A stretch of DNA of 64,000 nucleotides from Bacteroidota bacterium (GTDB taxonomy: Bacteria > Bacteroidota > Bacteroidia > NS11-12g > UBA955): assembly GCA_963169345.1 (NCBI GenBank), contig CAUJCT010000056.1, positions 1-64,000 of the forward strand, given 5' to 3'. Under the pieces are notes generated by a model that saw only the letters and a list, made by a program, of their open reading frames with translations, was not told the origin of the DNA and searched no databases. Shown piece by piece: positions 2,054 through 49,284 of this stretch (position 1 is its first letter; each line of letters begins with the position of its first letter). Position numbers and translations under genes: made by a program.

Positions 2054-2067
2054 GTAGTCCGTAGGGG
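2054..2067 (+). repeat. Left core direct repeat (putative attL)
   Basis: GTAGTCCGTAGGGG, identical to 24750-24763 and in the same orientation. Sequence of this kind (TAGTCCGTAGGGGAAT...) is typical of the complement of a tRNA 3' end, a common integration target; here the surrounding sequence no longer makes a whole tRNA. Confidence 0.6.
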
Positions 2068-2295: not shown

Positions 2296-3276
2296 ATGAT
2301 ATATAATGAAATTAGCAATTCTGATTTAGAAATGTTTCAGATTACTCTTAGTAATTTCAAAAAAATTGCTGAATCTGGGATTAATGAAAAGAATGAAAAA
2401 GAAATAATTAGGACTTTAGATTATTTCATACCATTTATTTCAAATTTAACTGCAAATTCAGTTTTCTCTAAATTACATAGAGTAACTATAAACAAAAGAG
2501 TAGTTGGAAAAAATCAAAGGATTTTTAAAATTTCAGAATTGAAATATCCCCCCTCATCATTGGTTACAAAATATGGAAGATGCAATATTAAAGGGCAGTC
2601 TATTTTTTATTCAGGATCTAACTGGTTAAACACAATGAATGAAATGAACCCTGAAAACGGAGATATGATTACCGAGTCTGTTTGGGAAGTAATAGACGAG
2701 CAACCTCTTAAATTTAGCCCCATTTTTAAAAATCAACCTAATATAATTAAGGATGGAATTCCTATCACAAATCTACTATCTCGGGAATATGATGAACTTT
2801 ATCAAAAAACATTTGGTGCTTACCCACCGAATTTAACAAAAAAAATTGACATGCTAATTCAATTCATTACTGATGAATTTACTCGGGAGGTTACAGACAA
2901 TCATTTTGATTATCTTTTTAGTGCTTATTTTTCAAATAAAATTTTCACTGAGTTAGAAGCAGGAACAATTGAAGCTATTCATTATCCAAGTGTAAAGGAA
3001 AAACTATCATTCAATAATTTAGCGATTAAAGCTGATGCATTTGATAAAAAATATAAATTGATTCAGGTAAGTGATAGTGTAGTTGTAAAAGATAAAAATC
3101 AAATTGGAGGATATATAACTCATGGGCTAGGTGAATGTGAACTATTTGAATTTGAAACAAATCAAGTTTTATGGGATTTGAGCAGCAGGAAAATAACCCA
3201 ACCTTTCGAAGTATTGAACAATTTGAAAGATAAGTATAAAATTGAATTAAATAACATTAATAATAGCTCTAATTAA
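2296..3276 (+). CDS. RES-domain protein (putative NAD-targeting toxin fold)
   Basis: 326 residues. The middle and C-terminal part carry RES-family features: an arginine segment 'VTKYGRCN' followed by 'GQSIFYSG..WLNTMNEMNP' (the conserved Arg and Glu), and later 'YLFSAYFSNKIF' and 'IEAIHYPSV' (the serine-containing part). RES proteins are ADP-ribosyltransferase-like; studied members degrade NAD+ and act as toxins. This one is about twice the length of the classic toxin (about 150-170 residues), with an extra N-terminal helical segment of about 60 residues. It is the first gene of the element and is very AT-rich. The downstream Xre gene lies 195 bases away with its own promoter, unlike the tight res-xre pairs. 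Family call is good; toxin activity is inferred. Confidence 0.7.
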   Translation: MIYNEISNSDLEMFQITLSNFKKIAESGINEKNEKEIIRTLDYFIPFISNLTANSVFSKLHRVTINKRVVGKNQRIFKISELKYPPSSLVTKYGRCNIKGQSIFYSGSNWLNTMNEMNPENGDMITESVWEVIDEQPLKFSPIFKNQPNIIKDGIPITNLLSREYDELYQKTFGAYPPNLTKKIDMLIQFITDEFTREVTDNHFDYLFSAYFSNKIFTELEAGTIEAIHYPSVKEKLSFNNLAIKADAFDKKYKLIQVSDSVVVKDKNQIGGYITHGLGECELFEFETNQVLWDLSSRKITQPFEVLNNLKDKYKIELNNINNSSN

Positions 3277-3377
3277 TTTTCATAAACTTATACAGCTTTT
3301 TAAGGGTTATGATACTATTTGTATTTCTAAATTTCAGTCCAAATTTAGTTTTCTATTATCAATGTGAATAAATTCTC

Positions 3378-3397
3378 AATTGGCATATTTGCCAATT
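3378..3397. promoter_or_regulatory. Inverted repeat, probable operator of the Xre gene
   Basis: Perfect inverted repeat AATTGGCA-TATT-TGCCAATT. It overlaps the -33 TTTG (3388-3391) of the promoter for the Xre gene, a good position for autorepression. A second palindrome, TTTGAATATTCAAA at 3416-3429, covers the end of the -7 element and the likely transcription start. Confidence 0.6.
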
Positions 3398-3419
3398 ATA
3401 ATTAAAATTACTACTTTTG
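3388..3419 (+). promoter_or_regulatory. Bacteroidota-type promoter for the Xre gene
   Basis: TTTG at 3388-3391, a 20-base spacer, then TACTTTTG at 3412-3419, matching the TTTG / TAnnTTTG consensus. Transcription would start near 3426, giving a leader of about 45 bases before the ATG at 3472. Confidence 0.6.
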
Positions 3420-3471
3420 AATATTCAAATTTTAAAAGTGACGGCATCACTATAAACACGGCATTAAATTT

Positions 3472-3903
3472 ATGACAAAAGTAAAATTTTTAGACAACTC
3501 AATTATTGAAGTAGTAGCCAAAGATGGCGAAGTCTTCACTTTAAAAGCACATCTTCCGGTTCATCCAAAAGATCAGGATCAAATCAAAACATTGCTTACT
3601 AAGTACTTTACCGAATGTTTTGAAGAAGACAAGTCAAGCATGGTGTATAGAGTATTATGTAAAATGTTTGGAATCTTTAGTTTTTCTTATCTAAACAGCG
3701 ATCGAAGTGCCGACCGTGAGCGTATTGGAGCCAGAATAAGACAAATCCGAGAACAAAAAGGTATAGAAGCTAAGCACCTTGCAATACTGAGTGGAATTGA
3801 CGCTGCTAATTTAAGTAGAATTGAACAGGGTAGATATTCAGTTGGCTTGGATGTTATTTCGAAAATAGGTGAAGCTCTTGGCTCTAGGGTTGATCTAATT
3901 TAG
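3472..3903 (+). CDS. Xre-family regulator with DUF2442-like N-terminus
   Basis: 143 residues in two parts. Residues 1-60 ('VKFLDNSIIEVVAKDGEVFTL...') resemble the small DUF2442 domain often found on antitoxin-like regulators. Residues about 85-143 are a helix-turn-helix of the HTH_3 type: 'IGARIRQIREQKGIEAKHLA' then 'SGIDAANLSRIEQGRYSVGL'. A strong promoter and two palindromes lie directly upstream, so autoregulation is likely. It could be the antitoxin or repressor for the RES gene just before it, but it lacks the DUF2384 domain of classical RES partners, so that pairing is uncertain. It could equally control the defence operon that starts 260 bases downstream. Confidence 0.75.
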   Translation: MTKVKFLDNSIIEVVAKDGEVFTLKAHLPVHPKDQDQIKTLLTKYFTECFEEDKSSMVYRVLCKMFGIFSFSYLNSDRSADRERIGARIRQIREQKGIEAKHLAILSGIDAANLSRIEQGRYSVGLDVISKIGEALGSRVDLI

Positions 3904-4163
3904 ACCAACTAATTTCAAATACCCAGTTCTATATAAATTCAGAATAATCTAATCTGGTTAATTGTTAGTCTATAAACTAAATGATAAATGCCAAATCGAT
4001 TATTTTGACTTTGTCTCGAAATTTGGAAAAATCCTGCTTTTTGCCGTAATTCCCGCAAATATTTGTAATTAATTATAAATAACTAAAACGAGTTATAGGG
4101 GAAACACTTATAACCCCGATATATTTGCACAACACATTGAAATCCAATAGGAAGAAATAGGCT
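3904..4163. promoter_or_regulatory. Upstream region of the defence operon
   Basis: 260 non-coding bases before hsdM. TATATTTG at 4120-4127 fits the -7 consensus and would start transcription near 4134, about 30 bases before the hsdM ATG; no good -33 TTTG is seen at the right distance. This is the only obvious promoter for the six genes that follow. Confidence 0.45.
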
Positions 4164-5732
4164 ATGGCTAAAATTAAAAAAGAAACAAAAGAAAAGAACA
4201 TTGAATTTACCCTATGGGAAGCTGCCAATAAACTAAGAGGTAGCGTTGAACCTTCAGAATACAAACATGTCGTCTTAAGTTTGATTTTTCTGAAATTTGC
4301 GAGCGATAAATTTGAAGACCATCGTGAAAAACTGATTTCTGAAGGCAAAGAAAAATACATAGAAATGCTTGAGTTTTACAACAAGGACAATGTGTTTTTT
4401 CTTCAAGAAATATCCCGTTGGAATTATATTATTAAAAAAGCAAAGCAAAGTGATATTGCTCTTATTGTAGATACAGCACTTCATACCATTGAAAAAGACA
4501 ACAAGTCCCTAAAGGGTGCTTTACCCGATAATTACTTTTCGCGATTAGGACTTGATGTAACAAAGCTCGCTTCACTTCTTGATACCATTAACGATATTGA
4601 CACTACCAAAGACCCGAAACAAGATCTGGTTGGCCGGGTTTATGAATATTTTCTCTCCAAATTTGCATTGGCTGAAGGCAAAGGGAAAGGCGAATTCTAT
4701 ACCCCTAAAAGTATAGTCAATCTCATTGCCGAAATGATTGAACCATACAAGGGTATTATCTATGACCCGGCCTGTGGTTCCGGTGGTATGTTTGTACAAT
4801 CCATTAAATTTATTGAAGCCCATAATGGCAATAAGAAAGAAATTTCTATTTACGGTCAGGAATACACCAATACCACTTATAAACTGGCCAAAATGAATCT
4901 GGCTATAAGAGGCATAGCCGGAAACCTTGGAGAAAAAGCCGCTGATACGTTTTTAGATGATCAACACAAAGACTTAAAAGCCGATTTCATTATGGCCAAT
5001 CCACCTTTTAACCAAAAAGACTGGAGAGGAGAAAACGAATTGATTGACGATCCTCGCTGGAGAGGCTATGAAGTACCTCCTAAGAGCAATGCAAATTATG
5101 GATGGATACTGAACATTGTAGCCAAGCTTTCTGAAAATGGTGTAGCCGGCTTTATTTTGGCTAATGGTGCATTAAGTGGTGGGGGTGAAGAATATAAGAT
5201 TCGAAGAAAGCTAATTGAAAATAACCTTGTGGAAGCAATCGCTATTTTGCCACAAAATATGTTCTACACAACTGGTATAAGTGTAACAATTTGGATAGTC
5301 AACAAAAACAAAAAAGCCCATAAACGAATCATTGGCGATGAACAACGCCAATACCGCAATCGTGAAAAAGAAATTTTGTTTCTGGATTTGCGGCAAATAG
5401 GCGAATCCTTTGAAAAGAAATATATTCAATTTAACGAAATTCATATTGCAGAAATAGCTAAAACATATCATAACTGGCAACAGGAAAACAACATGTATCG
5501 AGATATCCCTGAATATTGCTATTCTGCAACCCTTGAAGAAGTTTCAAAGAAAGATTTTTCACTTGTTCCTAGTAAATATATTGAGTTTGTAAATCGAGAC
5601 GAGAACATTGAGTTTGAAGAAAAAATGCGGAGACTTCAAATTGAGTTAACGGAGCTGTTAAAAAATGAAGCTCAAAGCAAAAATGAATTACTAACTGTGT
5701 TTAAAGAATTGGGTTATGAAATCAAATTATAG
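4164..5732 (+). CDS. hsdM: Type I restriction-modification methyltransferase subunit HsdM
   Basis: 522-residue N6-adenine DNA methylase, the normal size for HsdM. The N-terminal HsdM_N helical domain is clear ('LWEAANKLRGSVEPSEYKHV'), then 'GEFYTPKSIVNLI' and SAM-binding motif I 'DPACGSGGMF' (D201 to F210), and catalytic motif IV 'NPPF' at residues 279-282. With HsdS it methylates adenines in the bipartite target; with HsdS and HsdR it makes the restriction complex. First gene of a tightly packed operon; its last 17 bases overlap hsdS. All key motifs are intact, so activity is expected. Confidence 0.97.
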   Translation: MAKIKKETKEKNIEFTLWEAANKLRGSVEPSEYKHVVLSLIFLKFASDKFEDHREKLISEGKEKYIEMLEFYNKDNVFFLQEISRWNYIIKKAKQSDIALIVDTALHTIEKDNKSLKGALPDNYFSRLGLDVTKLASLLDTINDIDTTKDPKQDLVGRVYEYFLSKFALAEGKGKGEFYTPKSIVNLIAEMIEPYKGIIYDPACGSGGMFVQSIKFIEAHNGNKKEISIYGQEYTNTTYKLAKMNLAIRGIAGNLGEKAADTFLDDQHKDLKADFIMANPPFNQKDWRGENELIDDPRWRGYEVPPKSNANYGWILNIVAKLSENGVAGFILANGALSGGGEEYKIRRKLIENNLVEAIAILPQNMFYTTGISVTIWIVNKNKKAHKRIIGDEQRQYRNREKEILFLDLRQIGESFEKKYIQFNEIHIAEIAKTYHNWQQENNMYRDIPEYCYSATLEEVSKKDFSLVPSKYIEFVNRDENIEFEEKMRRLQIELTELLKNEAQSKNELLTVFKELGYEIKL

Positions 5733-6897
5733 CAAATTAGGGAATTATATTTGTGAGATTAATGAAAGAAATTCCAGCCTTTCAATTACGAAGTTGTTAG
5801 GTGTGAGTATGGAAAAAACATTTATTCCTTCAGTTGCTAATCTGAATGGAGTTGATATGTCAACTTACAAAGTATTAAGAAACATGCAATTAGCTTGTAA
5901 ATTAATGAGCGTTGGACGTGACGAAAAACTTCCAGTTGATTTGTATAAAGAAGAACAACCAGCATTGGTTTCCTCTGCTTACTATGTATTTGAACCAAAA
6001 GACAAAGAAGAGTTAATGCCTGAATATTTATTGCTGTGGCTCTGCCGAAAAGAAAATGATAGATATATTGGTTTCATAAGCGGTGGCGATGTGAGAGGTG
6101 GTATTTCTTGGGAAACATTTTGCAATCTTCCAATTAAAGTTCCTTCTATTCCAAAACAACGAGAAATAGTTACTGAATATAACATAATTCAAAATCGAAT
6201 AGCAATAAACCAAAAACTTATACAAAAACTGGAAGAAACAGCAATGTCGATTTACAGGGAGTGGTTTATAAAAGGAATTGATGAAGACAATTTACCTTCG
6301 GGGTGGAGCGTTGGTAAACTTGGAGATTTAGTTGATGTTATAAATGGGTATCCATTTAGTAGTGAAGATTTTTCTGAAACAGGCAATTTCCCAATCATTA
6401 AGATTACAAATATAACCGAACCTAACATTGATTTATCAACAACGCAATATTATCTAGGTAAAATTGAAAATAGGATGAAGAAATGTGTAGTAAACCAAAA
6501 CGATATATTGATTTCAATGACAGGTTCACATATGAACCAAATTAATTCTGCTGTTGGAAAAATTGGAAGATACGACTATGAGTTCTCTTCATTACTTAAT
6601 CAGAGAGTAGGTAAACTTAACCCAAAATTTCAATGTCAGGAGTTCGTATTCTTTACGATGCTGCAACAAAACATCAAAATGGAAATTTTAATGGCCGCAA
6701 CAGGAAGCGCAAATCAAGCCAATATTTCATCGGATACGATAAAAGGTATTGAAATAATCATACCCAATGAAACCATACTCGAATCATTTGAAAATATTGT
6801 TTTAAAAATAAGGAATGTAATATCTAACTATAATAAGGAAACTAGAAAGCTAAAAGAAATGAAAGATTTACTTCTTTCAAAGTTAGCAAAAAATTAA
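5716..6897 (+). CDS. hsdS: Type I restriction-modification specificity subunit HsdS
   Basis: 393 residues. Two target-recognition domains (about residues 1-150 and 190-360) are separated by a helical conserved region ('IPKQREIVTEYNIIQNRIAI' then 'QKLEETAMSIYREWF'), with a second helical region at the C-terminus ('NYNKETRKLKEMKDLLLSKL'). Each TRD reads one half of a split target and the helices set the spacer length. The second TRD opens with the usual 'LPSGWSVGKLGDLVDVINGYPF'-type motif, while the first is a different subtype, so the two halves probably have separate origins. It overlaps hsdM by 17 bases and is followed after 10 bases by the Gabija nuclease gene. The target sequence cannot be read from the protein. 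Confidence 0.95.
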   Translation: MKSNYSKLGNYICEINERNSSLSITKLLGVSMEKTFIPSVANLNGVDMSTYKVLRNMQLACKLMSVGRDEKLPVDLYKEEQPALVSSAYYVFEPKDKEELMPEYLLLWLCRKENDRYIGFISGGDVRGGISWETFCNLPIKVPSIPKQREIVTEYNIIQNRIAINQKLIQKLEETAMSIYREWFIKGIDEDNLPSGWSVGKLGDLVDVINGYPFSSEDFSETGNFPIIKITNITEPNIDLSTTQYYLGKIENRMKKCVVNQNDILISMTGSHMNQINSAVGKIGRYDYEFSSLLNQRVGKLNPKFQCQEFVFFTMLQQNIKMEILMAATGSANQANISSDTIKGIEIIIPNETILESFENIVLKIRNVISNYNKETRKLKEMKDLLLSKLAKN

Positions 6898-6907
6898 TAA
6901 ATAATTA

Positions 6908-8746
6908 ATGGGAATACAGCTAAAACAATTGAGAGTGCATGGATTCAGAGGATTAGATAATCTAGAAATTGATTTCGATCCTACAACCGTGTTAGTAGGC
7001 ACAAACAATGCAGGCAAAACTACGATACTAAAGTCTTTACAGCTTGGTCTTTCAAATTCATTTCAAATAACCGATGATGATTTTCACTTTACAGATACTT
7101 TAAATCGCAATAAAATTGTAATTGATATTTTGTTTATTAGTATTGATGATGAAGGAAGACAATTAGCCGAATTTGAAGATAAATGGGCAACAGTATTTAC
7201 AGTAGACCGTATAAGTATAGATTCAATGGGCAACCAGTTTCTTGCATTTAGAACAATTATTGAGGAAAATTTAATTAGAAAAACCTACAAGAAAAAACAA
7301 TTTTTAATCGACGAATGGGTTGAGTACTATAATGAATTCGATGGATTTTGGTATTTAAAAGATTTCAAAAATGAATTAAGTTTTTATATTGAAGAAATTC
7401 CATTTTTCTATTTAGATGCAAATAGAGATATTCTTGAAGATTTAAAAAACAAAACGTCGTTCTTGGGGAAAATCCTATCGTCAATTACCTACAACAAAGA
7501 AGACAAAGAATTAATTGAAAATCTCATCAAAGATTTAAATGAAAAAACTATAGATAAAAGTGAAATCCTAACGAACCTTGCTAGCACCTTGGAGGAGTTA
7601 GACACCGCCATGGATAATCCAAACAACACAGTGGACATTACACCTTTCACAAAGAAAATTAGAGATCTCAACAAAGGTGTAAAGATAAACTATTCACAAT
7701 TTTCAATGGAATATCATGGCATGGGAACTAGAAGTTGGTCGTCTTTATTAATTCTTAAGGCTTTTATTTTACAGAACAAAAAACTTGCTGATGCTGCCCT
7801 CGTTGCTTATCACCCTATAATCGCAATCGAAGAACCTGAGTCACATCTACACCCAAACGCACAAAAGAAGCTTTATTCGCAAATTAAAGCTATTGAAGGC
7901 CAGAAAATAGTTGCGACTCATTCAAGTTACATTGCAGGTAGTGCAAGATTGAAAGAAATAAGGAGTATAATAAAAGCTGACAACTCAACAAACGTTGGTA
8001 AAATAGTTGAATCTGATTTAAGCTCTGAAGAAATTAGAAAAATCCACCGACAGGTAATCAACACTAGAGGAGAGCTTTATTTTTCTAAAGTGATTATACT
8101 TTGTGAAGGAGAAACAGAGGAACAAGCATTACCCCTTTTGTTCAGAAAACACTTTAATAAAAGTATTATTGAGCTTGGAATAGATATAGTAGGCATTGAC
8201 GGCGGAGGCAATTATTATCCATTTATATACTTCGCACAGAAGCTAAACTTAAAGTGGTTTATTTTAAGTGATGGAGAAGCTAACATAATAAAAAAACTAA
8301 AGAAAGATATTAAGAAGTTATCTTCTCTAGAAGAGAATATTGATGACATTATCCTTCCCGAAAACATTGTTCATTTCGAAAATGAAAATGATTTTGAAAT
8401 GGATCTTATTACTAATGGGTTTATTGAAGAAATTGAAAATTGCCTAAAAGTCATCCTTAACATAGAAGATCTGGAAGAGCTAATCGCGAACAAAAATGGC
8501 ACATCAAAAGGACGTGTTAAAACTGAAAACATATGCAATACTTGTAACCAAAACATTTTTCAAGAACAAATGCGAGATTATAATGGAAATGAAGGCCATA
8601 AAAGAGCTTTGAATGATTTATTATCACAAAATAAAACCAAATACTCATTTCCATTATCAGAGTTAATATATGACTCTGACAAACCATTACCTCCAAAAAT
8701 TGTAGAACTCTTTGATAAAGTCAGTAATATTTTAAATCCTATTTGA
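6908..8746 (+). CDS. gajA: GajA-like OLD-family nuclease (Gabija component)
   Basis: 612-residue ATPase-TOPRIM protein of the OLD family. Walker A 'GTNNAGKTT' is at residues 31-39; an ABC-type signature-like 'GMGTRSWSSL' lies near residue 270; Walker B 'IAIEEPESHLHP' near 303-314; then a TOPRIM nuclease domain from about residue 390 with E400 in 'CEGETEEQALP', D455-G456-E457 in 'LSDGEAN', an acidic 'ENDFEMDL' and a late lysine in 'NKTKYSFPLSEL'. OLD nucleases next to a UvrD-like helicase (class 2) are the Gabija anti-phage system, in which nucleotide depletion is thought to release DNA cleavage. The usual DxD metal motif reads DGE here. One base separates it from gajB. It is inserted between hsdS and hsdR and is visibly more AT-rich than hsdM or hsdR. 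Confidence 0.88.
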   Translation: MGIQLKQLRVHGFRGLDNLEIDFDPTTVLVGTNNAGKTTILKSLQLGLSNSFQITDDDFHFTDTLNRNKIVIDILFISIDDEGRQLAEFEDKWATVFTVDRISIDSMGNQFLAFRTIIEENLIRKTYKKKQFLIDEWVEYYNEFDGFWYLKDFKNELSFYIEEIPFFYLDANRDILEDLKNKTSFLGKILSSITYNKEDKELIENLIKDLNEKTIDKSEILTNLASTLEELDTAMDNPNNTVDITPFTKKIRDLNKGVKINYSQFSMEYHGMGTRSWSSLLILKAFILQNKKLADAALVAYHPIIAIEEPESHLHPNAQKKLYSQIKAIEGQKIVATHSSYIAGSARLKEIRSIIKADNSTNVGKIVESDLSSEEIRKIHRQVINTRGELYFSKVIILCEGETEEQALPLLFRKHFNKSIIELGIDIVGIDGGGNYYPFIYFAQKLNLKWFILSDGEANIIKKLKKDIKKLSSLEENIDDIILPENIVHFENENDFEMDLITNGFIEEIENCLKVILNIEDLEELIANKNGTSKGRVKTENICNTCNQNIFQEQMRDYNGNEGHKRALNDLLSQNKTKYSFPLSELIYDSDKPLPPKIVELFDKVSNILNPI

Positions 8747-8747
8747 G

Positions 8748-10586
8748 ATGCAACAAATTAACTTATCAAAAAAACAGCAAGAAATAGTTGGATTAAATGA
8801 TGGGGCATTTCTTGTTTTAGCGAGTGCCGGTAGCGGAAAGACCAGAGTACTAACTGAAAGAATTAAAAGACTTTCAGAATCAACAAACGGAAAAATTTTA
8901 GCCATCACATTCACTAACAAAGCAGCTACAGAAATCAGAGAGCGTATAGGTACAAATGATAAAATAAAAAAAAACGTCTTCGTTGGCACTTTTCATAGCT
9001 TTTGCCAATCAATACTTGAACTTAGATTTAAACTTTTGGGTTATAACAAAATGCCACACATTTTTGAAGATGATGTAGACAGGATTGAATTAATAAAACA
9101 AGCCATCAAATCTGTGCCTTATTTTGATTCAATATATAATGAATTAGAGCCAAAGAAAAAAAACGAATATACTTATAACGCATTACAATTTATTTCAACA
9201 GTAAAAAGGGAAGTATTAACAGCCGAAGATTTAGTTGAAAATTCCGAAAACAACGAATTTCGATTTTTATATGAAACTTACCAAGACATTTTGAAATCTA
9301 ATAATGCAATTGACTTTGACGACATTATTAGATTAGTGTATGAGTTATTTACAAACAATGAATCTGTAGCTAATCTATATCGAAAATCTTATACATTTGT
9401 TTGTATTGATGAATGTCAGGATCTTAACAAGTTACAATATTTTCTCTTAAAATCACTTAGTGGGAACATCATTAAAAATATAATGATGGTTGGTGATCCT
9501 AATCAAGCTATCTACGGGTTTAACGGTTCTGCATCATCATTCATGCAAAAATATTTTGTTGAAGATTTTAAGGCGACTGAGTTTACCCTTGATGAGAACT
9601 ATAGGTGTTCAAAATCAATAATTAATGCATCAAACGTTATAATGGGACTTAACGTTGAAGCTGTAAATTATGTTATTCCTGGAATATTTGAAATATACCA
9701 GGCTTCGACGGAAAATAACGAAGCTCAATTTGTGATCAACAAAATAAAGGAACTTCTTAGCTTAAAATCGCATCAAGATATAGAAGGTGAAATCACTTTT
9801 GATAAAATATCTATACTTGGCAGAAATAAATTTGTTTTCAAACATATTGAGCTAATGCTCTCAAATGAGAACATCCCATTTTATTATAAGTCTGGAAACT
9901 CCGGAATTAAATTCAGCTCAGCTGCAATGAAAATATTCGACTTGTACTTTAGAGTAAAAATCAACCCATTAGACAAATTACACCAAAAGTACTTAGAAGA
10001 TATATTAAAAGTTAAGGATATCCATAATGAAACAGATTTGAATTCTTCGAAATTCCCAATTGCCTTAGACATAAAATCTATTATAGATGAAATATCAATT
10101 GACAATCTCCATTTAAAGATTGATCAACTAAAGAAAATATTTGAGAATGCTAAATTAGAAGATGACGAGAAAAAAATGACTCTTGATGAATTAAATGATT
10201 TTTCAAATCAACTTACTCAATATAAAATACACAACATTAAACCTACATTAGAAGGCTTTAAGTCTGCACTAGCACTTGGTCTAATGAACAATTCCCTAAA
10301 TAAGGAAACAGGTATTTGCTTAAGTACGGTACACACGATGAAAGGCCAAGAAAGTGAGATTGTTTTCTTACTTGGAATGGATGACGGTACTTTTCCAGAT
10401 TATAGAGCTATAAATAAAGGTGGAGAAGAGTTACAGCAAGAAAAAAACAACACTTATGTTGCGTTTACTAGAGCAAAGCGCTTCTTATTTGTCAGTTATC
10501 CAACAAAGCGCCTAATGCCTTGGGGAGATATTAAAACTAAAGCAATTTCGAGGTTTTTAAAACCTTTAATCTATGAAATTCACTGA
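8748..10586 (+). CDS. gajB: GajB-like UvrD-family helicase (Gabija component)
   Basis: 612-residue superfamily 1A helicase. Q-motif region at residues 1-12, Walker A 'ASAGSGKTRVL' at about 25-35, motif Ia 'ITFTNKAATEIRER', Walker B 'CIDECQDLN' near 219-227, motif III 'GDPNQAIYGFNG' near 249, motif IV 'LDENYRCSKSI', and late motifs 'STVHTMKGQESEIVFL' and 'YVAFTRAKRFLFV' near the C-terminus. All ATPase motifs look intact. It is longer than the founding GajB (494 residues, from memory). GajB assembles with the GajA tetramer in studied systems. The ATG follows the gajA stop by one base, and its last 14 bases overlap hsdR, so the three genes are translationally linked. Alternative reading: a generic PcrA/UvrD helicase, but its partner makes Gabija much more likely. 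Confidence 0.88.
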   Translation: MQQINLSKKQQEIVGLNDGAFLVLASAGSGKTRVLTERIKRLSESTNGKILAITFTNKAATEIRERIGTNDKIKKNVFVGTFHSFCQSILELRFKLLGYNKMPHIFEDDVDRIELIKQAIKSVPYFDSIYNELEPKKKNEYTYNALQFISTVKREVLTAEDLVENSENNEFRFLYETYQDILKSNNAIDFDDIIRLVYELFTNNESVANLYRKSYTFVCIDECQDLNKLQYFLLKSLSGNIIKNIMMVGDPNQAIYGFNGSASSFMQKYFVEDFKATEFTLDENYRCSKSIINASNVIMGLNVEAVNYVIPGIFEIYQASTENNEAQFVINKIKELLSLKSHQDIEGEITFDKISILGRNKFVFKHIELMLSNENIPFYYKSGNSGIKFSSAAMKIFDLYFRVKINPLDKLHQKYLEDILKVKDIHNETDLNSSKFPIALDIKSIIDEISIDNLHLKIDQLKKIFENAKLEDDEKKMTLDELNDFSNQLTQYKIHNIKPTLEGFKSALALGLMNNSLNKETGICLSTVHTMKGQESEIVFLLGMDDGTFPDYRAINKGGEELQQEKNNTYVAFTRAKRFLFVSYPTKRLMPWGDIKTKAISRFLKPLIYEIH

Positions 10587-13500
10587 AGAAAAATTAGAAC
10601 ATGCTTTTACAGAACTCCTCACCCTAGAGGGCTTTATTCATCAACTTGGTGAAGCAATAGCTCGTGTGCCTGATGAGGTTCTGATTGAGGAGGATCTTCG
10701 GGATTTTTTAAGTACCCAATACGAAGCTGATAACATTACCACAAATGAAATTAATTTAATCATCCTTCAACTAAAGAACTTCCCTTCTTCTGATTTATAT
10801 GAAAGCAATAAAACCATCAATAAAATGCTTTCTGATGGGTTCATTTTGAAAAGAGAAGACAGGAATCAGAAAGATATTTTTATTCAACTCATTGATTTTT
10901 CCGGATTAGAGAAGCAAAGAAAAGCGGATGATGATAGTTTAGTTAAATTAATTGCAGAAGAAGATAAAGTTGAAATAAAAGTCAATAATATTTATAAATT
11001 CGTAACCCAACTTGAGATTCAGGGTTCGGAGAAACGGATACCGGATGGCATAGTATATATCAATGGTCTGCCTCTGGTTGTATTTGAATTTAAAAGTGCT
11101 ATTCGAGAAGAAGCTACAGTCTTTGATGCATACAACCAATTAACAGTTCGTTACCGACGGGATATACCTGAACTATTTAAATACAATGCTTTTTGTGTAA
11201 TCAGCGATGGGGTTAATACCAAATCTGGCTCTTTCTTTGCACCTTATGAATTTTATTACGCCTGGAGAAGAGTAGCAGGACAAGCAAAGGATGTTGATGG
11301 CATTGACAGCATGTATACCTTGGTTCAAGGTATGTTCAACAAAGACCGTATCAGAGACATTGTTCGAAATTTCATTTATATACCAGACTCGTCCAAAAAG
11401 AATGAAAAAATCGTTTGTCGATATCCTCAATACTATGCTTCCAGAGCGCTTTACGAGCATATAAAAAATTCTCAAAAACCTAAAGGAGACGGAAAAGGTG
11501 GTACGTATTTCGGAGCGACCGGGTGCGGTAAAAGTTTTACCATGCTTTACCTAACCCGCTTGTTAATGCGAAGTGAACATTTCAATAATCCAACTATTGT
11601 ATTAATTACAGATCGCACCGACCTAGACGACCAGTTATCAGATCAATTCACCAATGCCAAAAATTTTATAGGTGACAATGCGGTTGTCAGTGTTGAAAGT
11701 CGTGCCCAGCTTCGAGAACTATTGCAAGGAAGGCAAAGTGGTGGGGTGTTTTTAACCACTATACACAAGTTTACCGAAGATACCAGGTTACTCAGCAAAC
11801 GAAATAACATTATTTGTATTTCTGATGAAGCTCACAGAAGCCAGGTGAACCTAGATCAGAAAATAAAGGTTACAGAAAAAGGAGTCAGCAAATCTTATGG
11901 TTTTGCCAAATATTTACATGATTCATTACCGGAAGCCACTTACGTTGGTTTTACAGGCACACCCATAGATGCGACTTTAGATGTATTCGGCAATGTAGTA
12001 GATGCCTATACCATGACAGAATCCGTTCATGATGAAATTACAGTAAGAATTGTGTATGAAGGTAGAGCGGCAAAAGTATTATTGAACAATGCCAAGCTTC
12101 AGGAAATTGAAGAATACTACAACCGATGCGCAGACGAAGGCAGCAATGAACAACAAATAGAAGAAAGCAAAAAAGCAATGGCGCAAATGAATGCCATTAT
12201 TGGAGATCCAGGTCGATTGAAAGACCTGGCAAATGATTTCGTTCAACATTACGAACAACGTGTTGAAGAGGGTTCTACCATTAAAGGTAAAGCCATGTTT
12301 GTTTGCAGCAACAGGGAAATCGCCTATGAATTTTATAAAAACGTATTGGAACTCCGCCCTGAATGGGGTGAAATCCGAGCGGCAGAACCTGGTTCTGAAT
12401 TATCTGAAAACGATTTGAAGGAAATTAAGCCAATGGAAAAAATCAAGTTGGTGATGACCAGAGGCAAAGACGACTCAAAAGATTTATACGATTTATTAGG
12501 CACATCAGAAGATAGAAAAGAATTTGACCGACAGTTTAAAAATGCTAAATCCAATTTTAAAATAGCCATTGTGGTCGATATGTGGTTGACCGGATTTGAT
12601 GTACCTTTCCTAGACACCATGTATCTTGACAAACCTGTAAAACGACACAATCTGATACAGACTATTTCTAGGGTAAACCGCAAATACGAAGGTAAAGAAA
12701 AAGGCTTGGTTGTCGATTATATCGGCATCAAAAAACAAATGAACATGGCGTTGGCACAATACAACAAGACCGACGGGCAGAATTTTGAAGAAATTAGCCA
12801 GTCCGTCGTTGTGGTAAAAGACCAGTTGGATTTATTGCATAAGTTGTTTCATACTTTTGATAGTTCTAAATATTACAACGGTTCGACTATAGAGCAACTG
12901 AATACACTTAACAAAGCCACAGAATTTGTTCAGCTCACCCTGGACATTGAGAAACGATTTACGTATATTGCCAAGCGTCTTAAAGCTGCTTATGACATTT
13001 GTGTAGGCAGTGACCAGTTTGTGCAACTTGAACGCGATCAGATTCATTTCTATTTGGCTGTTAAGAGTATCCTGTTTAAACTCACCAAGGGGACTGCACC
13101 GGATACCGCACAAATGAACGCCAGAGTGCGTAAAATGATTCAGGAAGCTATACAAAGCGAAGGCGTTGAAGAAATATTCAAACTAGGTGAAGACGAAACT
13201 GCCAAGATTGATATTTTCAACGAAGATTACCTAGCTAAAATTGACAAAATAAAACTTCCTAATACCAAAATCAAGCTGCTACAGAAACTATTGGCCAAAG
13301 CTATTGAAGACGTTCGTCGAATTAACCGTGTAATGGGCATAGACTTCTCTAGACGTATGCAGGCCATCATCAACAAATACAATGAAAGAGACGAAGCCGA
13401 TGTGCTGAGAAGTGAGGTATTGGAAGACTTTACAGATGAAATTATCAATCTTTACCATGCCCTTGTAAAAGAAAAAGATGCTTTCAAAGACATGGGAATT

Positions 13501-13785
13501 GATTTTGAAGAGAAAGCTTTCTACGACATTTTAAAATCATTAACCGTCAAATACGACTTCTCCTACCCTAACGATAGGTTAATTATGTTGGCAAAAAAGG
13601 TTAAAGAAGTGGTAGACGACAAAGCCAAATACACCGACTGGAGCAAGCGTGATGATATAAAGGCCGAGTTAAAGGTGGACTTAATCATTCTATTGGCAGA
13701 GAACGACTACCCTCCGGTGGATAGAGATGAGGTGTATAAGGAGATTTTCGAGCAGGCGGAGAATTTTAAGAAGTATAAAAGTTAG
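10573..13785 (+). CDS. hsdR: Type I restriction enzyme motor/nuclease subunit HsdR
   Basis: 1,070 residues, typical for HsdR. The N-terminal PD-(D/E)xK nuclease is visible: 'RIPDGIVYINGLPLVVFEFK' with the Asp near residue 157 and E-x-K near 172-174. The SF2 motor follows: Walker A 'GATGCGKSFTM' near 313-323, 'LITDRTDLDDQL' (motif Ia), 'ISDEAHRSQ' near 416-424, 'VGFTGTPI' (motif III), 'VDMWLTGFDVPFLDTMYLDK' (motif V) and 'LIQTISRVNR' (motif VI). The C-terminal helical part that docks to HsdM is present. It is the restriction partner of hsdM/hsdS 3.7 kb upstream, with gajA-gajB between. The start overlaps the gajB end by 14 bases. All catalytic residues look intact. Confidence 0.96.
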   Translation: MKFTEEKLEHAFTELLTLEGFIHQLGEAIARVPDEVLIEEDLRDFLSTQYEADNITTNEINLIILQLKNFPSSDLYESNKTINKMLSDGFILKREDRNQKDIFIQLIDFSGLEKQRKADDDSLVKLIAEEDKVEIKVNNIYKFVTQLEIQGSEKRIPDGIVYINGLPLVVFEFKSAIREEATVFDAYNQLTVRYRRDIPELFKYNAFCVISDGVNTKSGSFFAPYEFYYAWRRVAGQAKDVDGIDSMYTLVQGMFNKDRIRDIVRNFIYIPDSSKKNEKIVCRYPQYYASRALYEHIKNSQKPKGDGKGGTYFGATGCGKSFTMLYLTRLLMRSEHFNNPTIVLITDRTDLDDQLSDQFTNAKNFIGDNAVVSVESRAQLRELLQGRQSGGVFLTTIHKFTEDTRLLSKRNNIICISDEAHRSQVNLDQKIKVTEKGVSKSYGFAKYLHDSLPEATYVGFTGTPIDATLDVFGNVVDAYTMTESVHDEITVRIVYEGRAAKVLLNNAKLQEIEEYYNRCADEGSNEQQIEESKKAMAQMNAIIGDPGRLKDLANDFVQHYEQRVEEGSTIKGKAMFVCSNREIAYEFYKNVLELRPEWGEIRAAEPGSELSENDLKEIKPMEKIKLVMTRGKDDSKDLYDLLGTSEDRKEFDRQFKNAKSNFKIAIVVDMWLTGFDVPFLDTMYLDKPVKRHNLIQTISRVNRKYEGKEKGLVVDYIGIKKQMNMALAQYNKTDGQNFEEISQSVVVVKDQLDLLHKLFHTFDSSKYYNGSTIEQLNTLNKATEFVQLTLDIEKRFTYIAKRLKAAYDICVGSDQFVQLERDQIHFYLAVKSILFKLTKGTAPDTAQMNARVRKMIQEAIQSEGVEEIFKLGEDETAKIDIFNEDYLAKIDKIKLPNTKIKLLQKLLAKAIEDVRRINRVMGIDFSRRMQAIINKYNERDEADVLRSEVLEDFTDEIINLYHALVKEKDAFKDMGIDFEEKAFYDILKSLTVKYDFSYPNDRLIMLAKKVKEVVDDKAKYTDWSKRDDIKAELKVDLIILLAENDYPPVDRDEVYKEIFEQAENFKKYKS

Positions 13786-13788
13786 AAT

Positions 13789-14940
13789 ATGGGTTTAATT
13801 TACTTTTTTATTACTGCAATAATATTATTTCAATTTGTAATTGTGTATGCAATAGCAGAAGTTTACTTCTCATGTAAAAACACCGCTAAAAACACTCATA
13901 AAAGAGTAAATTCATTAAGTGAACGTGTTTTTATAATTATTGGACTATTTATTGCACTTGGCTTGTTGATTTTTTCAATTTATTCACCTGCTATTTTCAC
14001 CTCACAACTTGAAAATTCGTTGCAAAATAATATTGCATCTGAAGGGCAATTGGGTGATAAAATTGGGGGACTAATGAATCCTTTTATCTCAATGGCTGCC
14101 GTTATTGTAACTGGATTAGCATTTTATGCTCAGATAAAAGCCAATAAATTAGTACAAAATCAATTTAAAATTCAACAGTTTGAAGACCAATTTTATGAAA
14201 TGTTGGAAATTCATATTGAAACAGTTCGAAGTATGGATATTAGCAATACTATTACAGGAAAAAAATGTTTTACAAGAATGTTTAGCGAACTTAAATTAAT
14301 AGGCAAAGTTTGTGAACATTATTGGCCTGAAAATTCAAATAAAACAAATAAACAAACTGAAATTAGTGATGTAATGTATAAAATTTTCTTTTATGGTAAT
14401 GGGCATGCATCTGATAAACTAATAGATAAAATTAAATATAAGAAAATATTTGACTGTTTAAAAGTTATTGAGGAGTATTATAATAACAACTTAAATAAAA
14501 AAATCAATTACGTTACATTTAATATTTCCCAAATACTAAATAGCGAAGATTCATTTGAAATAGATTTACAGTATTATCCATTTGATGGACATGTTAATAG
14601 ATTAGGGACGTATTTTAGACATTTATTCTTATTGGTTACACATGTAGTTAATTCAGAAATTATTACTAGCAACGAAAAATACAAATACATTAAATTAATC
14701 CGCGCACAACTTTCAAATCATGAACAATTGATTATTTATTATAACAGTTTAGCATCCTTTGGAAAATCTTGGCACGATAAAAAATATTTCACCGAATTTA
14801 GATTAATAAAAAATTTACCGTTTGAATTGGCTGATTTTGGTTGTTCCCCAAAAGAGAAATTCAAAGACTATTTAAACAAAGAAGATTTAATGGTGAATTC
14901 TTTGGGTAAGCCGATTTTTGATGAATATGAAAAGTACTAA
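13789..14940 (+). CDS. Putative phage abortive infection protein (putAbiC-like), membrane-anchored
   Basis: 383 residues. The N-terminal 130 residues hold three predicted membrane segments (about 5-25, 48-70, 95-115), followed by a soluble domain starting 'QFEDQFYEMLEIHIETVRSM'. The C-terminal half has the conserved block 'HVNRLGTYFRHLFLLVTHVV' and 'YKYIKLIRAQLSNHEQLIIY', which matches what I recall of the putAbiC family (Pfam PF16872). Such proteins are linked to abortive infection; their biochemical activity is not established. It starts three bases after the hsdR stop and so is the last gene of the defence operon. The membrane anchor suggests that it acts at the cytoplasmic membrane. It converges with, and overlaps by four bases, the zinc-ribbon gene on the other strand. 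Confidence 0.75.
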   Translation: MGLIYFFITAIILFQFVIVYAIAEVYFSCKNTAKNTHKRVNSLSERVFIIIGLFIALGLLIFSIYSPAIFTSQLENSLQNNIASEGQLGDKIGGLMNPFISMAAVIVTGLAFYAQIKANKLVQNQFKIQQFEDQFYEMLEIHIETVRSMDISNTITGKKCFTRMFSELKLIGKVCEHYWPENSNKTNKQTEISDVMYKIFFYGNGHASDKLIDKIKYKKIFDCLKVIEEYYNNNLNKKINYVTFNISQILNSEDSFEIDLQYYPFDGHVNRLGTYFRHLFLLVTHVVNSEIITSNEKYKYIKLIRAQLSNHEQLIIYYNSLASFGKSWHDKKYFTEFRLIKNLPFELADFGCSPKEKFKDYLNKEDLMVNSLGKPIFDEYEKY

Positions 14941-23446: not shown

Positions 23447-24634
23447 TCAATAACTCCAATCTACCTTCTTTAATTCCGCTTCCTTCATTTTTTCAGACAA
23501 GTGAATATAACTCCTGGTCGTATTGATATCACTATGCTGCGCCATTTCCTGAAGCACAGGAATACTTACTTTGCCCACCATAAAAGTAATAAAAGTGTGT
23601 CGGGCAATATGTGAAGTTAATTTTTCATCTATATGAGCCATTTCTGCAAGCGTTTTCAAGTTTCTATTATAGGGCTGCAAACTCATTTTAAAAGGGCAGA
23701 TACTCAAAACATCTTTGTATTTGGCTATGATCATTTCCGGTTTGCTTAATCCAGCTTCATTTTTAAAGAATAAGGCAAGGTTCTCCTGTTTGTGCTTTTT
23801 GGTTTTTTGTGATACTAAATCCAAATAAATTCCATCCTTTTTAAATTTGACCGTCTTATCCGATATCTGTATGATGTCACTGAAGCGCAATCCGGTATAA
23901 ACTGAGAATAAAAACATATCTCTGGATCTGGCCAAACCCATATTACCGTCTTTAATCATTAACTCTTCTAATTTTCGGATATCATCTATGGTTAAGCAAT
24001 GCTTCTCGGTCTTTTTACCCTTCAGTTTAAAATCATCGTAGGGATTACTGTGTTTTTCCATCAATCCTTTGCGAATCGCTTCATTGATGGTTCTTCTGAG
24101 ATACTTGTGATACTTTACTATAGTATTAGCGTGCAATTTATGTCGAACAAAGTATCTGTTCAACGCCTCAACATTGGTATAATTTAAATCGGTGAAGTAT
24201 TTAATACCTTTAAAACTGATTAAATGGTTTAAGGCAGAACGGTAATTCTTTTTAGTGTTGGGCGTAAAACTCGGATTGTCCTTGAATTCGTTTTCAAAGA
24301 ATTCAAGAAAACTGGTATGCCCGGATTCGCTAGCTAAAAAAGTTCTATAAAAATCCAATGGAACTGTGATACCTTTTTGATACTGTTTGGTTTCATACTC
24401 CAGAAAATCGTCGGTCATTTTCTTTAATGCCTTATTCAATTCGAAGGCATTAGAATGTTTCTCTGTAATCAGTCTCTTTTTTTCGTTCCATTGATTAGGG
24501 AACACCTTAATGCCTGTAGAAACCCAAATTCTGTCACCTCCTTTGCGGTAACATTCAATTTGTAGTAATCCGGCTTTGGTAGCTGAGGCTAATTTTTTGC
24601 GGTCATAGATGAGTTTAAAATTTGCAATATTCAT
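23447..24634 (-). CDS. int: Tyrosine recombinase, element integrase
   Basis: 395 residues. N-terminal arm-binding region typical of Bacteroidota integrases ('ECYRKGGDRIWVSTGIKVFP' then 'NQWNEKKRLI'), a SAM-like core-binding domain (about 105-200) and the catalytic domain with Arg in 'YTGLRFSDI' (near 250), His-x-x-Arg in 'HIARHTF' (near 342-345), His in 'MAQHSDINTT' and the nucleophile in 'RSYIHL' (near 375). All five catalytic positions are present. It lies at the right edge of the element with repeated motifs (24640-24660, 24662-24673) directly upstream, so it most likely integrates and excises the 22.7-kb island. ATG at 24634. Confidence 0.95.
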   Translation of the reverse strand: MNIANFKLIYDRKKLASATKAGLLQIECYRKGGDRIWVSTGIKVFPNQWNEKKRLITEKHSNAFELNKALKKMTDDFLEYETKQYQKGITVPLDFYRTFLASESGHTSFLEFFENEFKDNPSFTPNTKKNYRSALNHLISFKGIKYFTDLNYTNVEALNRYFVRHKLHANTIVKYHKYLRRTINEAIRKGLMEKHSNPYDDFKLKGKKTEKHCLTIDDIRKLEELMIKDGNMGLARSRDMFLFSVYTGLRFSDIIQISDKTVKFKKDGIYLDLVSQKTKKHKQENLALFFKNEAGLSKPEMIIAKYKDVLSICPFKMSLQPYNRNLKTLAEMAHIDEKLTSHIARHTFITFMVGKVSIPVLQEMAQHSDINTTRSYIHLSEKMKEAELKKVDWSY

Positions 24635-24749: not shown

Positions 24750-24763
24750 GTAGTCCGTAGGGG
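24750..24763 (+). repeat. Right core direct repeat (putative attR)
   Basis: GTAGTCCGTAGGGG, identical to 2054-2067. The two bases after it (AA) extend the resemblance to the complement of a tRNA 3' end, then similarity stops. Confidence 0.6.
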
Positions 24764-35727: not shown

Positions 35728-38700
35728 CTATCGCAATACTGTCACTTCACCTTTGATGTAATGTATTCTTCCTTTATTGTCTTTTATCTGTACTAAATAT
35801 AAGTAAACACCATCCTGAACCATTTCACCTTGATACATTCCATCCCAGGATGTGAAATTTTTAACATCTAAAAGTTTTTCACCCCAGCGGTTAAATATCT
35901 GACAATTGATCCATACAATACCTAAACCTTCAATAGCAAATACATCATTATGTCCATCATCATTAGGAGAAAAAACTGAAGGAATATGATAAACAAATAA
36001 ATCAAGAACATTTAATAAGCCACTGCTGCTGTCAGTACAATTGTTATTGTCTTTAACAAATAACACAATCTTATAGCTACCAGGTTGCTTATAATTGTGA
36101 ATAGGATCTGTTAATGCTGACGAATCGTTATCCCCAAAATTCCAGTTCCATTTAACAATATTGCCCTTACTTCTGTCAATAAATTGAGCACTTGGGTCGC
36201 TCATATATAATTTGTCAGGACTAAAATCAAAATCTGCTACAGGAGGTTGATAAACTGTAATTGTATCTTTCAAATTCTGGACACAAAAAAACGAATTTTC
36301 AACCCTTAATTTAACCTCATATAAGCCACTTAACAGAATCACACTATCTTTTGGATTTGAATACTTCACAGAATTGATTTCCCATTCTATCTTGTCTTCA
36401 ATTTCTGTACTGAAGATGACTTTTAAAGGAGAACAACCATTCTCAGGTTGAAGTGTAATAGTATTATTCGGGGCTTTATTAACTGTCACAAAAACTGTAT
36501 CAGCTTCTGCACAATTATTCGAATTAACAATCGAATAAATAATTCTGTTTGACCCAATATTGGCTTTGTCAGGCATGAAATCACCATTTAATGATATATA
36601 TGCTTCCGACTTAAATGTACCGCCATTTTCAGCTACATTAATTTTTGCAGCTGATGCATTTTGACAGAAGGGACCTAAAGGCAATATCTGTGCATCCGGT
36701 TTCTTTAAAACAGATATTGTTATACTGTCAATATTGGAACACAGGTTAGCATCTGTATACTTGTATTTCACCTTATGAGCCCCAACTTTAGCTATCGATG
36801 GATAAAAGAGTCCATTGGAATCTACATAGGTTTGTTCTATGAATTTTCCACCAGTATTGATAAGTGCTGAAAGTTGTTGTGCCGATATATTTTCACAAAA
36901 AGGACCGGCACTTTTTATACTGGCATCTGGTAGGTCAAATACTCTGATTTTTACAGAGTCTCTGTTTGAACATCCCAATGAATTCGTATAATCATAATAG
37001 ACAGTTGATAAGCCAATATTTGCTGTTGCCGGATCAAAATCACCGCTGCCTGTCACGTAAACGCCTCCCGAATATGTACCCCCTGGATATGAATTATGTT
37101 GCAATAACTGAATTCCTGCGTTCTTACAGAATGGTCCGGCTGCTGCAATTTTCGCTGATGGAATGCTGTCAACTCTAATTGTGATAGAATCCGTATTCGT
37201 ACATGAACGTGAATCCGTAAAGGTATAATACACTTTATGAGTGCCTACTCCTGCTGTCAGAGGATTGAACGAACCACTGGAGTTGATGTAAGAACCTCCT
37301 GAATAGGTGCCTCCGGAATTAGATGCATGTTGAATGGTTTTCAATCCGGCGTTCTTACAGAATGGTCCGGCTGGCGCAATCTTAGCAGATGGTATGCTGT
37401 CAACTCTGATAGTTATAGAATCTGTGTTCGTACATGATCTTGAATCAGTGAAGGTATAATAAATCTTGTTATTGCCTATGCTTGCATTAGCTGGATTAAA
37501 TGAGCCACTGGAAGTAATGTATGAACCTCCTGAATACGTACCGCCAGCATTTGATGCGTGTTGAATCGTTTTCAATCCAGCGTTTTTACAAAATGGTCCG
37601 GCTGCTGCAATCTTAGCAGATGGTATACTATCCACTCTAACTGTGATGGAATCAGTATTCGTACATGAACGTGAATCTGTGAAGGTGTAGTACACTTTAT
37701 GAGTGCCCACTCCTGCTGTTAAAGGATTAAATGAGCCACCTGAATTGATATATGAACCACCTGAATAGGTACCTCCAGAATTCGATGCATGTTGAATTGT
37801 TTTCAGTCCCGCATTTTTACAGAATGGTCCAGCTGGCGCAATTTTAGCTGATGGAATGCTATCCACTCTAATAGTGATGGAATCCGTATTCGTACAAGAA
37901 CGTGAATCTGTGAATGTGTAGTATACTTTATGCGTACCTACTCCTGCAGTTAAAGGATTAAATGAACCACTTGAATTGATGTATGATCCTCCTGAATAGA
38001 TGCCGCCGGAATTAGATGCATGTTGAATGGTTTTCAATCCGGCGTTCTTACAGAATGGTCCTGCTGGCGCAATTTTAGCTGATGGAATGCTGTCAACTCT
38101 GACTGTAATAGAATCTGTATTCGAACATGATCTTGAATCTGTGAATGTGTAGTATACTTTATGCGTACCCACTCCAGCAGTTAAAGGATTGAACGAACCA
38201 CTAGAATTGATGTATGAGCCACCTGAATAAGTACCTCCTGAATTTGATGCGTGTTGAATCGTTTTCAATCCAGCGTTTTTACAGAATGGTCCGGCTGCTG
38301 CAATCTTAGCAGATGGTATGCTATCCACTCTCACTGTGATGGAATCCGTGTTCGTACATGATCTTGAATCTGTGAAGGTATAGTATACTTTATGTGTTCC
38401 AACTCCTGCTGTCAATGGATTGAACGAACCACTGGAGTTGATGTATGTACCTCCTGAATAAGTACCACCAGCATTGGATGCATGTTGTATTGTTTTTAAT
38501 CCTGCATTTTTACAGAACGGACCGGCTGCTGCAATTTTAGCAGATGGAATGCTATCCACTCTAATAGTGATGGAATCCGTATTCGTACAAGAACGTGAAT
38601 CTGTGAAAGTATAATATACTTTATGCGTACCAACTCCAGCAGTCAATGGATTGAACGAACCACCTGAATTAATATATGAACCACCTGAATATGTTCCTCC

Positions 38701-48960: not shown

Positions 48961-49284
48961 AATCAATTTACAAAATTGTCAGCCGGAAATCGAACCTGGT
49001 AAGTGTGTTTCATAGTTCTAACACCATCCTGACAAAGGAGATCTATATTTTTTTTGCAACAGCAAGATTAGTTAATAATTGTTAATCATCAAATTGTTTT
49101 CATTAAATTTCTGTTATTTCTAAGCAGGTAAATTGCACATGTCCCTGATTTACTGAACTTTATTGAAAATGCTGTTTGGATGGTTGAAACAGTGCTTTTT
49201 GCTTTTAAACGGTAAAATAAAACAACCTGTCAGGTTGCAATATTTGAATGCAATATGCTTATTTACAAATACTTAGATGCTTAA

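Follow-up and report, generated by a model that had tools for sequence, protein, structure and literature searches.

In enteropathogenic Escherichia coli (EPEC), the RptR-RMS-DarTG2-M48 island described in 2025 places DarTG2 exactly between hsdS and hsdR of a type I restriction-modification (RM) system; this site has been termed a potential recombination hotspot, and another gene pair occupies it in four genomes (PMC12255303). In EcoprrI, the effector PrrC is embedded in a type I RM locus, where the RM enzyme keeps it latent until the phage peptide Stp frees it (PMC12707154). OLD-TOPRIM modules have been reported as back-up effectors of bacteriophage exclusion (BREX) systems in a 2026 survey (PMC12839542). 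Here we describe a type I RM operon that carries the two genes of a Gabija system between hsdS and hsdR. It lies at 4164-14940 in a Bacteroidota bacterium (lineage NS11-12g, UBA955; assembly GCA_963169345.1), within the first 64,000 nucleotides of contig CAUJCT010000056.1, hereafter the window. Comparison with related loci suggests, with a probability that we put at about 0.72, that the RM genes form a chassis with an exchangeable slot for second-line cargo between hsdS and hsdR, loaded here with Gabija.

Gabija genes within a type I RM operon

The operon comprises six genes, all on the forward strand, with junction spacings of -17, +10, +1, -14 and +3 bases in the open reading frame (ORF) list. 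The methyltransferase subunit gene hsdM (4164..5732; 522 residues) matches PF02384 (N6_Mtase, E 6e-103) and HsdM_N (E 8e-24), and the specificity subunit gene hsdS (5716..6897; 393 residues) matches PF01420 (Methylase_S, E 2e-24) in two stretches as well as PADLOC Specificity_I. They are followed by gajA (6908..8746; 612 residues), an OLD ATPase-TOPRIM nuclease gene that matches PADLOC GajA PDLC00067 over its full length (E 4e-203) along with AAA_15 and OLD-like_TOPRIM (E 2e-14), and, after a 1-base gap, by gajB (8748..10586; 612 residues), which encodes a UvrD-like superfamily 1 helicase (PADLOC GajB PDLC00132, E 3e-218). The restriction subunit gene hsdR (10573..13785; 1070 residues) scores above the NCBIfam cut-off for TIGR00348 and at 1253 bits for PADLOC REase_I. 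The last, variable gene 3' of hsdR (13789..14940; 383 residues) encodes a putAbiC-domain protein (PF16872, E 4e-20, 72.7 bits against a cut-off of 22), with a weak match to the PADLOC AbiC model (E 3e-5, 21.5 bits). The ORF list and these Pfam, PADLOC and NCBIfam matches bear out the genes, order and spacings given in a preliminary description of this DNA made from its letters. The complete hsdM, hsdS and hsdR set of a type I RM system is present, and a second defence system stands among its genes, reading in the same direction and spaced as in an operon. At the search thresholds applied, the genome has a single copy of Gabija and of this HsdR.

In domain content, in the order of the two genes and in matching the PADLOC models over their full length, the pair agrees with known Gabija; it differs in lying inside a type I RM operon. 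It is also remote from the solved Gabija chains: GajB is longer here (612 residues versus about 494), matches solved GajB only over the N-terminal 75 or so residues (E about 1e-13) and is a closer match to PcrA/UvrD, and a phmmer search with GajA retrieves none of the solved GajA chains at E 1e-5. Judged by these comparisons, the distance is divergence within a broad family and not a defining feature.

The order hsdM-hsdS-gajA-gajB-hsdR recurs elsewhere. A search with a GajA alignment, using one genome per species, returned 80 loci (loci are designated by L numbers), whose ORFs were labelled with profiles built up from the proteins of the window. Seventeen loci have Gabija between hsdS and hsdR (the window, L011, L012, L017, L020, L021, L022, L024, L032, L047, L054, L060, L061, L062, L065, L095 and L159), often with 4-bp overlaps, and these are distributed across Bacteroidota, Pseudomonadota, Planctomycetota, Acidobacteriota, Cyanobacteriota, Verrucomicrobiota and one Methanophagales archaeon. 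Contig ends cut five of the 17 (L011, L021, L024, L032 and L065), where the order is only partly visible, and extra genes accompany gajAB in the interval in L020, L060, L095, L159 and L032. The hsdS-gajAB-hsdR label requires at least nine changes on the GajA tree; given this recurrence, Gabija is not a chance neighbour of the RM genes. The preliminary description had treated absence of the same order from every other genome as a count against it, and the order, once looked for, was found.

Where both gajAB and the RM genes are present, gajAB lies inside the interval on the same strand in 17 cases, inside and inverted in one (L085) and outside in two (L028 and L086). The inverted case is an archaeal type I RM locus (L085:4419-17041) that also contains YhcG-like and GmrSD genes. 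Many GajA proteins sit outside any type I RM locus, and 15 plasmid relatives of GajA were found at 33-40% identity. Gabija is also nested in BREX, as pglX-gajAB-pglZ (L063 and L071) or PglXI-gajAB-BrxH (L015), and in L056 a BrxH stands behind gajAB. In another modification system with Gabija inside it, at L025:1956-13080, the pair is flanked by a type IIG restriction-methylase and a TOTE primase-helicase.

From the spacing of the genes, we infer that Gabija would be co-transcribed with the RM genes. The single promoter-like site that had been placed ahead of the operon is a weaker claim than first stated, as promoter matches occur at chance level: sigma-70-like patterns number 56 against 54.7 expected from shuffling, Bacteroidetes-type patterns number 5 against 4.1, and TATATTTG at 4120 has no -33 box at the expected distance. 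Because the matches are at shuffle level, the scans say nothing about internal promoters. The -14 overlap of gajB and hsdR had been read as a special sign of one transcription and translation unit. Gabija does lie within the layout of the RM transcription unit rather than as a random neighbour, but the overlap, while genuine, looks derived. The window joint is 6 bp shorter than that of the relative L022, and this shortfall removes the gajB stop. The gajB frame now runs on and takes its last four codons from the hsdR start (...LIYEIH and a stop); with those 6 bp missing, the overlap is a local variant. The putAbiC gene, previously proposed as a third defence layer, was found behind hsdR in no other locus examined, where the genes in that position belong to other families or are unmatched. 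By gene order it is outside the recurrent unit.

Cargo turnover between hsdS and hsdR

Searches with HsdR in the phylum, the class and one order recovered the same RM lineage, with HsdR 59-79% identical, and the content of the hsdS-hsdR interval differs nearly everywhere within it. Gabija occupies the slot in the window, L020, L022, L032 and L159. Other cargo includes HamA-HamB of Hachiman (L169) or HamB (L140), Shedu (L138, and L134 by a profile built in this analysis), AAA_13 proteins resembling PrrC/RloC (L150 and L170), Tmn (L156), a KAP/PifA-like protein (L165), SIR2-HerA (L153) or HerA (L139), Thoeris-type TIR proteins (L131 and L168) and SIR2/STALD (L158). Also present are OLD with TOPRIM (L130), GmrSD (L136), AbiEii (L155), HipA_C (L132), a RelA/SpoT-like protein (L133), Schlafen/AlbA (L032) and a SMODS nucleotidyltransferase (L166); further family assignments rest on profiles built in this analysis. 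With few exceptions, cargo genes read in the direction of the operon and are closely spaced, and bounded slots range in length from -4 to 8,176 bp. Four of the 32 intervals bounded on both sides are empty (L135, L142, L160 and L161). Three of these, in which hsdS and hsdR overlap by 4 bp (L142 and L161) or are separated by 3 bp (L160), provide natural no-cargo controls.

Unknown defence genes might also be sought in the slot. Two slot ORFs, L130:9304-11364 (687 residues) and L151:7282-8907 (541 residues), match no Pfam or PADLOC family and are candidate defence genes by position. A separate observation concerns the HsdR of L159 (11991-15872), into which some 220 residues have been inserted in frame; they include an IS200-like Y1 transposase domain (PF01797, residues 729-812, E 7e-8). 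The frame is still open, and the gene is either an HsdR-transposase fusion or the site of a young insertion.

The slot turns over much faster than the chassis that surrounds it. The five Gabija-bearing rows require five changes on the HsdR tree, which is the maximum, and a single clade of Gabija-bearing HsdRs is rejected by the approximately unbiased (AU) test (p 2.6e-47). Narrower groupings pass the same test (the window with L020 and L022, p 0.077; L032 with L159, p 0.065), so a few of these Gabija slots could share one acquisition. For L152, L153, L154, L155 and L160, the pairwise comparisons made gave 87-92% identity in hsdR DNA, yet the cargo differs or is absent; a homologous first slot gene is common to L152, L154 and L155. 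Dedicated co-evolution of RM and Gabija as a general rule is rejected by this turnover together with the AU test.

Slot borders and hsdR-head relics

Pairwise blastn between chassis with different cargo defines both borders of the slot. On the left, DNA identity ends near the 3' end of hsdS. On the right, it picks up again 0-2 bases from the hsdR start codon in most pairs, as in L152/L153 (6193 versus 6195), L161/L162 (13672, exact) and the window/L150 (10573, exact). The first 27 bases of hsdR also recur within slots: nine loci hold eleven copies, of which one was picked up at the 85% threshold. In 134 kb of slot, windows taken from inside hsdR, twelve in all, gave no match, and no hsdR-head copies were found on the minus strand. 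A profile search concurs, with slot matches that start at model position 1. These relics, decayed copies of the hsdR 5' end, span 27-119 bp and lie between cargo modules, most of them within 7 bp after a cargo gene or overlapping its stop. A frame break or a stop codon occurs in at least two, so the relics are not kept as coding sequence.

Pairs of loci capture the states before and after such an event. L154 has a single 188-residue gene between hsdS and hsdR, while L155 and L152 carry the homologous first gene, a relic, further cargo and then hsdR. For Gabija, gajB directly abuts hsdR in the window and L022, and in L032 and L159 it is followed by a relic, more cargo and hsdR. The relic in L159 is 94% like the hsdR head of L153; the first 87 bases of the L159 hsdR cannot be aligned to the L153 lineage, and the body of the gene aligns at 85-90%. 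This combination of a relic and a foreign head indicates that the newcomer brought its own hsdR head. In L166, copies of the hsdS 3' tail lie beside the relic. Read from these alignments, new cargo has entered repeatedly just before hsdR, leaving behind a remnant of the earlier hsdR head. The possibility that a mobile element ends behind the relics was considered and rejected: the sequences that follow them differ, and most run directly into the next cargo start.

These observations suggest a mechanism in which homologous recombination between chassis alleles, within hsdS and hsdR, is the main route of cargo exchange. Stacking would occur when a donor fragment of cargo plus hsdR head joins inside the 5' end of the resident hsdR. 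A more far-reaching proposal treats the hsdR start codon of type I RM operons as a directional cargo-capture site, at which modules carry a short hsdR head as a homology arm and leave relics. The slot would then record the order of acquisition, and Gabija, Hachiman, Shedu, Tmn and PrrC/RloC-like systems would be interchangeable second layers under the RM promoter; we regard this extension as evenly poised.

Setting of the operon and competing explanations

The operon probably lies on a 22.7-kb integrative element spanning 2054-24763, a region of low G+C with an integrase-like gene at its right end. The element is suggested by this gene, a tyrosine-recombinase-like integrase assigned by reading its translation (23447..24634, reverse strand), together with a unique pair of 14-mers: GTAGTCCGTAGGGG, a probable attachment repeat, occurs on the forward strand at 2054..2067 (left copy) and 24750..24763 (right copy) and nowhere else in the 3.63-Mb genome. 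A second shared 14-mer lies inside the element at 2131 and 24640. ARAGORN found no tRNA at the element, and no empty site was found; around the two ends, genus relatives offer no flanks that can be aligned. The region 2296-3903, upstream of hsdM and in the same orientation, contains a helix-turn-helix gene and a 326-residue ORF that has no family match and looks RES-like by eye; together they are possibly a toxin-antitoxin pair or an operon regulator. Farther away, 35728-48966 encodes a predicted surface protein of 4412 residues with more than 20 near-identical repeats of about 80 residues.

Three other explanations bear on how these genes came to lie together. The first, along the lines of the preliminary description, makes GajAB a dedicated working part of the RM system. 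Anti-restriction proteins or the DNA ends that HsdR produces would set it off, and putAbiC would supply a third layer. The tight spacing and overlap, the recurrence of the order in distant phyla and the PrrC precedent (PMC12707154) are consistent with such coupling, as is the fact that the six GajA proteins of this chassis form one clade of a Gabija type found, within the sample, only in these slots. We nevertheless consider it improbable: the same chassis is found with a dozen other systems in its slot or with none, the Gabija rows are dispersed over the HsdR tree, many GajA proteins occur beyond any type I RM locus, putAbiC is confined to the window locus among those examined, and the overlap reflects a 6-bp local change. 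Less easily set aside, though still unlikely, is that the hsdS-hsdR joint, as part of a mobile defence island, simply tolerates insertions, with each system protecting by itself and position having no function. The wide variety of unrelated cargo, the inverted gajAB of L085 and the probable integrative element would all fit. Weighing on the other side are the prevalence of gajAB inside the interval over positions beside the operon and the strand bias and tight packing of the cargo, neither of which proves function. Very improbable is an explanation based on timing, whereby the interval would delay HsdR after hsdM and hsdS so that methylation precedes cutting in a new cell, with the cargo as filler. 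It accords with the placement of hsdM and hsdS before the slot and hsdR after it in the lineage examined, and with slots of up to 8.2 kb, but close chassis have empty slots with 4-bp hsdS/hsdR overlaps (L142 and L161), and the cargo consists of recognisable defence genes.

The reading of an RM chassis with an exchangeable cargo slot has points against it as well. It is drawn from sequence comparison, to which the promoter scans add nothing. The single GajA clade would fit some specialisation to this RM system, the sequences behind the relics share no common end, and recombination is a deduced means of exchange for which neither a donor fragment nor an enzyme was identified. On balance, the view of a composite RM-Gabija-AbiC system should give way to that of an RM chassis with Gabija as its current cargo. 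Under the chassis reading, gajAB would be transcribed together with hsdM, hsdS and hsdR, and RM would form the first layer of defence. GajAB would act alone as a DNA-sensing nuclease-helicase, a second layer against phages that escape or block RM. What co-transcription would offer is dosage and joint transfer; the proteins would not be bound to act as partners.

The general statement that defence genes cluster here takes on a concrete architecture, with one RM chassis, one slot, many second-line systems and traces of their installation. If position or co-expression matters, chassis with swapped cargo would serve as a natural experiment, showing which systems perform well as a layer behind type I restriction. 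We found no paper on Gabija in this slot, on cargo turnover within one chassis or on hsdR-head relics, in a search that left most subscription journals outside its reach, and an earlier remark on OLD-UvrD genes in RM loci is possible. The BREX systems with OLD-TOPRIM effectors likewise nest a Gabija-like module in a methylation-based defence operon, with a BREX core instead of hsdMSR. EcoprrI shares the embedded effector, and the analogy with PrrC drawn in the preliminary description is a good one: within this RM lineage, the slot of L150 and of L170 is filled by AAA_13 proteins that resemble PrrC/RloC. Latency under the RM enzyme and release by Stp are features of PrrC, and no such link is known for GajAB. 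The EPEC island places a second defence system at the same hsdS-hsdR site; there the cargo is the DarTG2 toxin-antitoxin system, accompanied by the RptR regulator and an M48 peptidase, whereas here it is Gabija and no RptR was identified. Relative to that island, the present loci add cargo turnover within one chassis and relics of the hsdR head.

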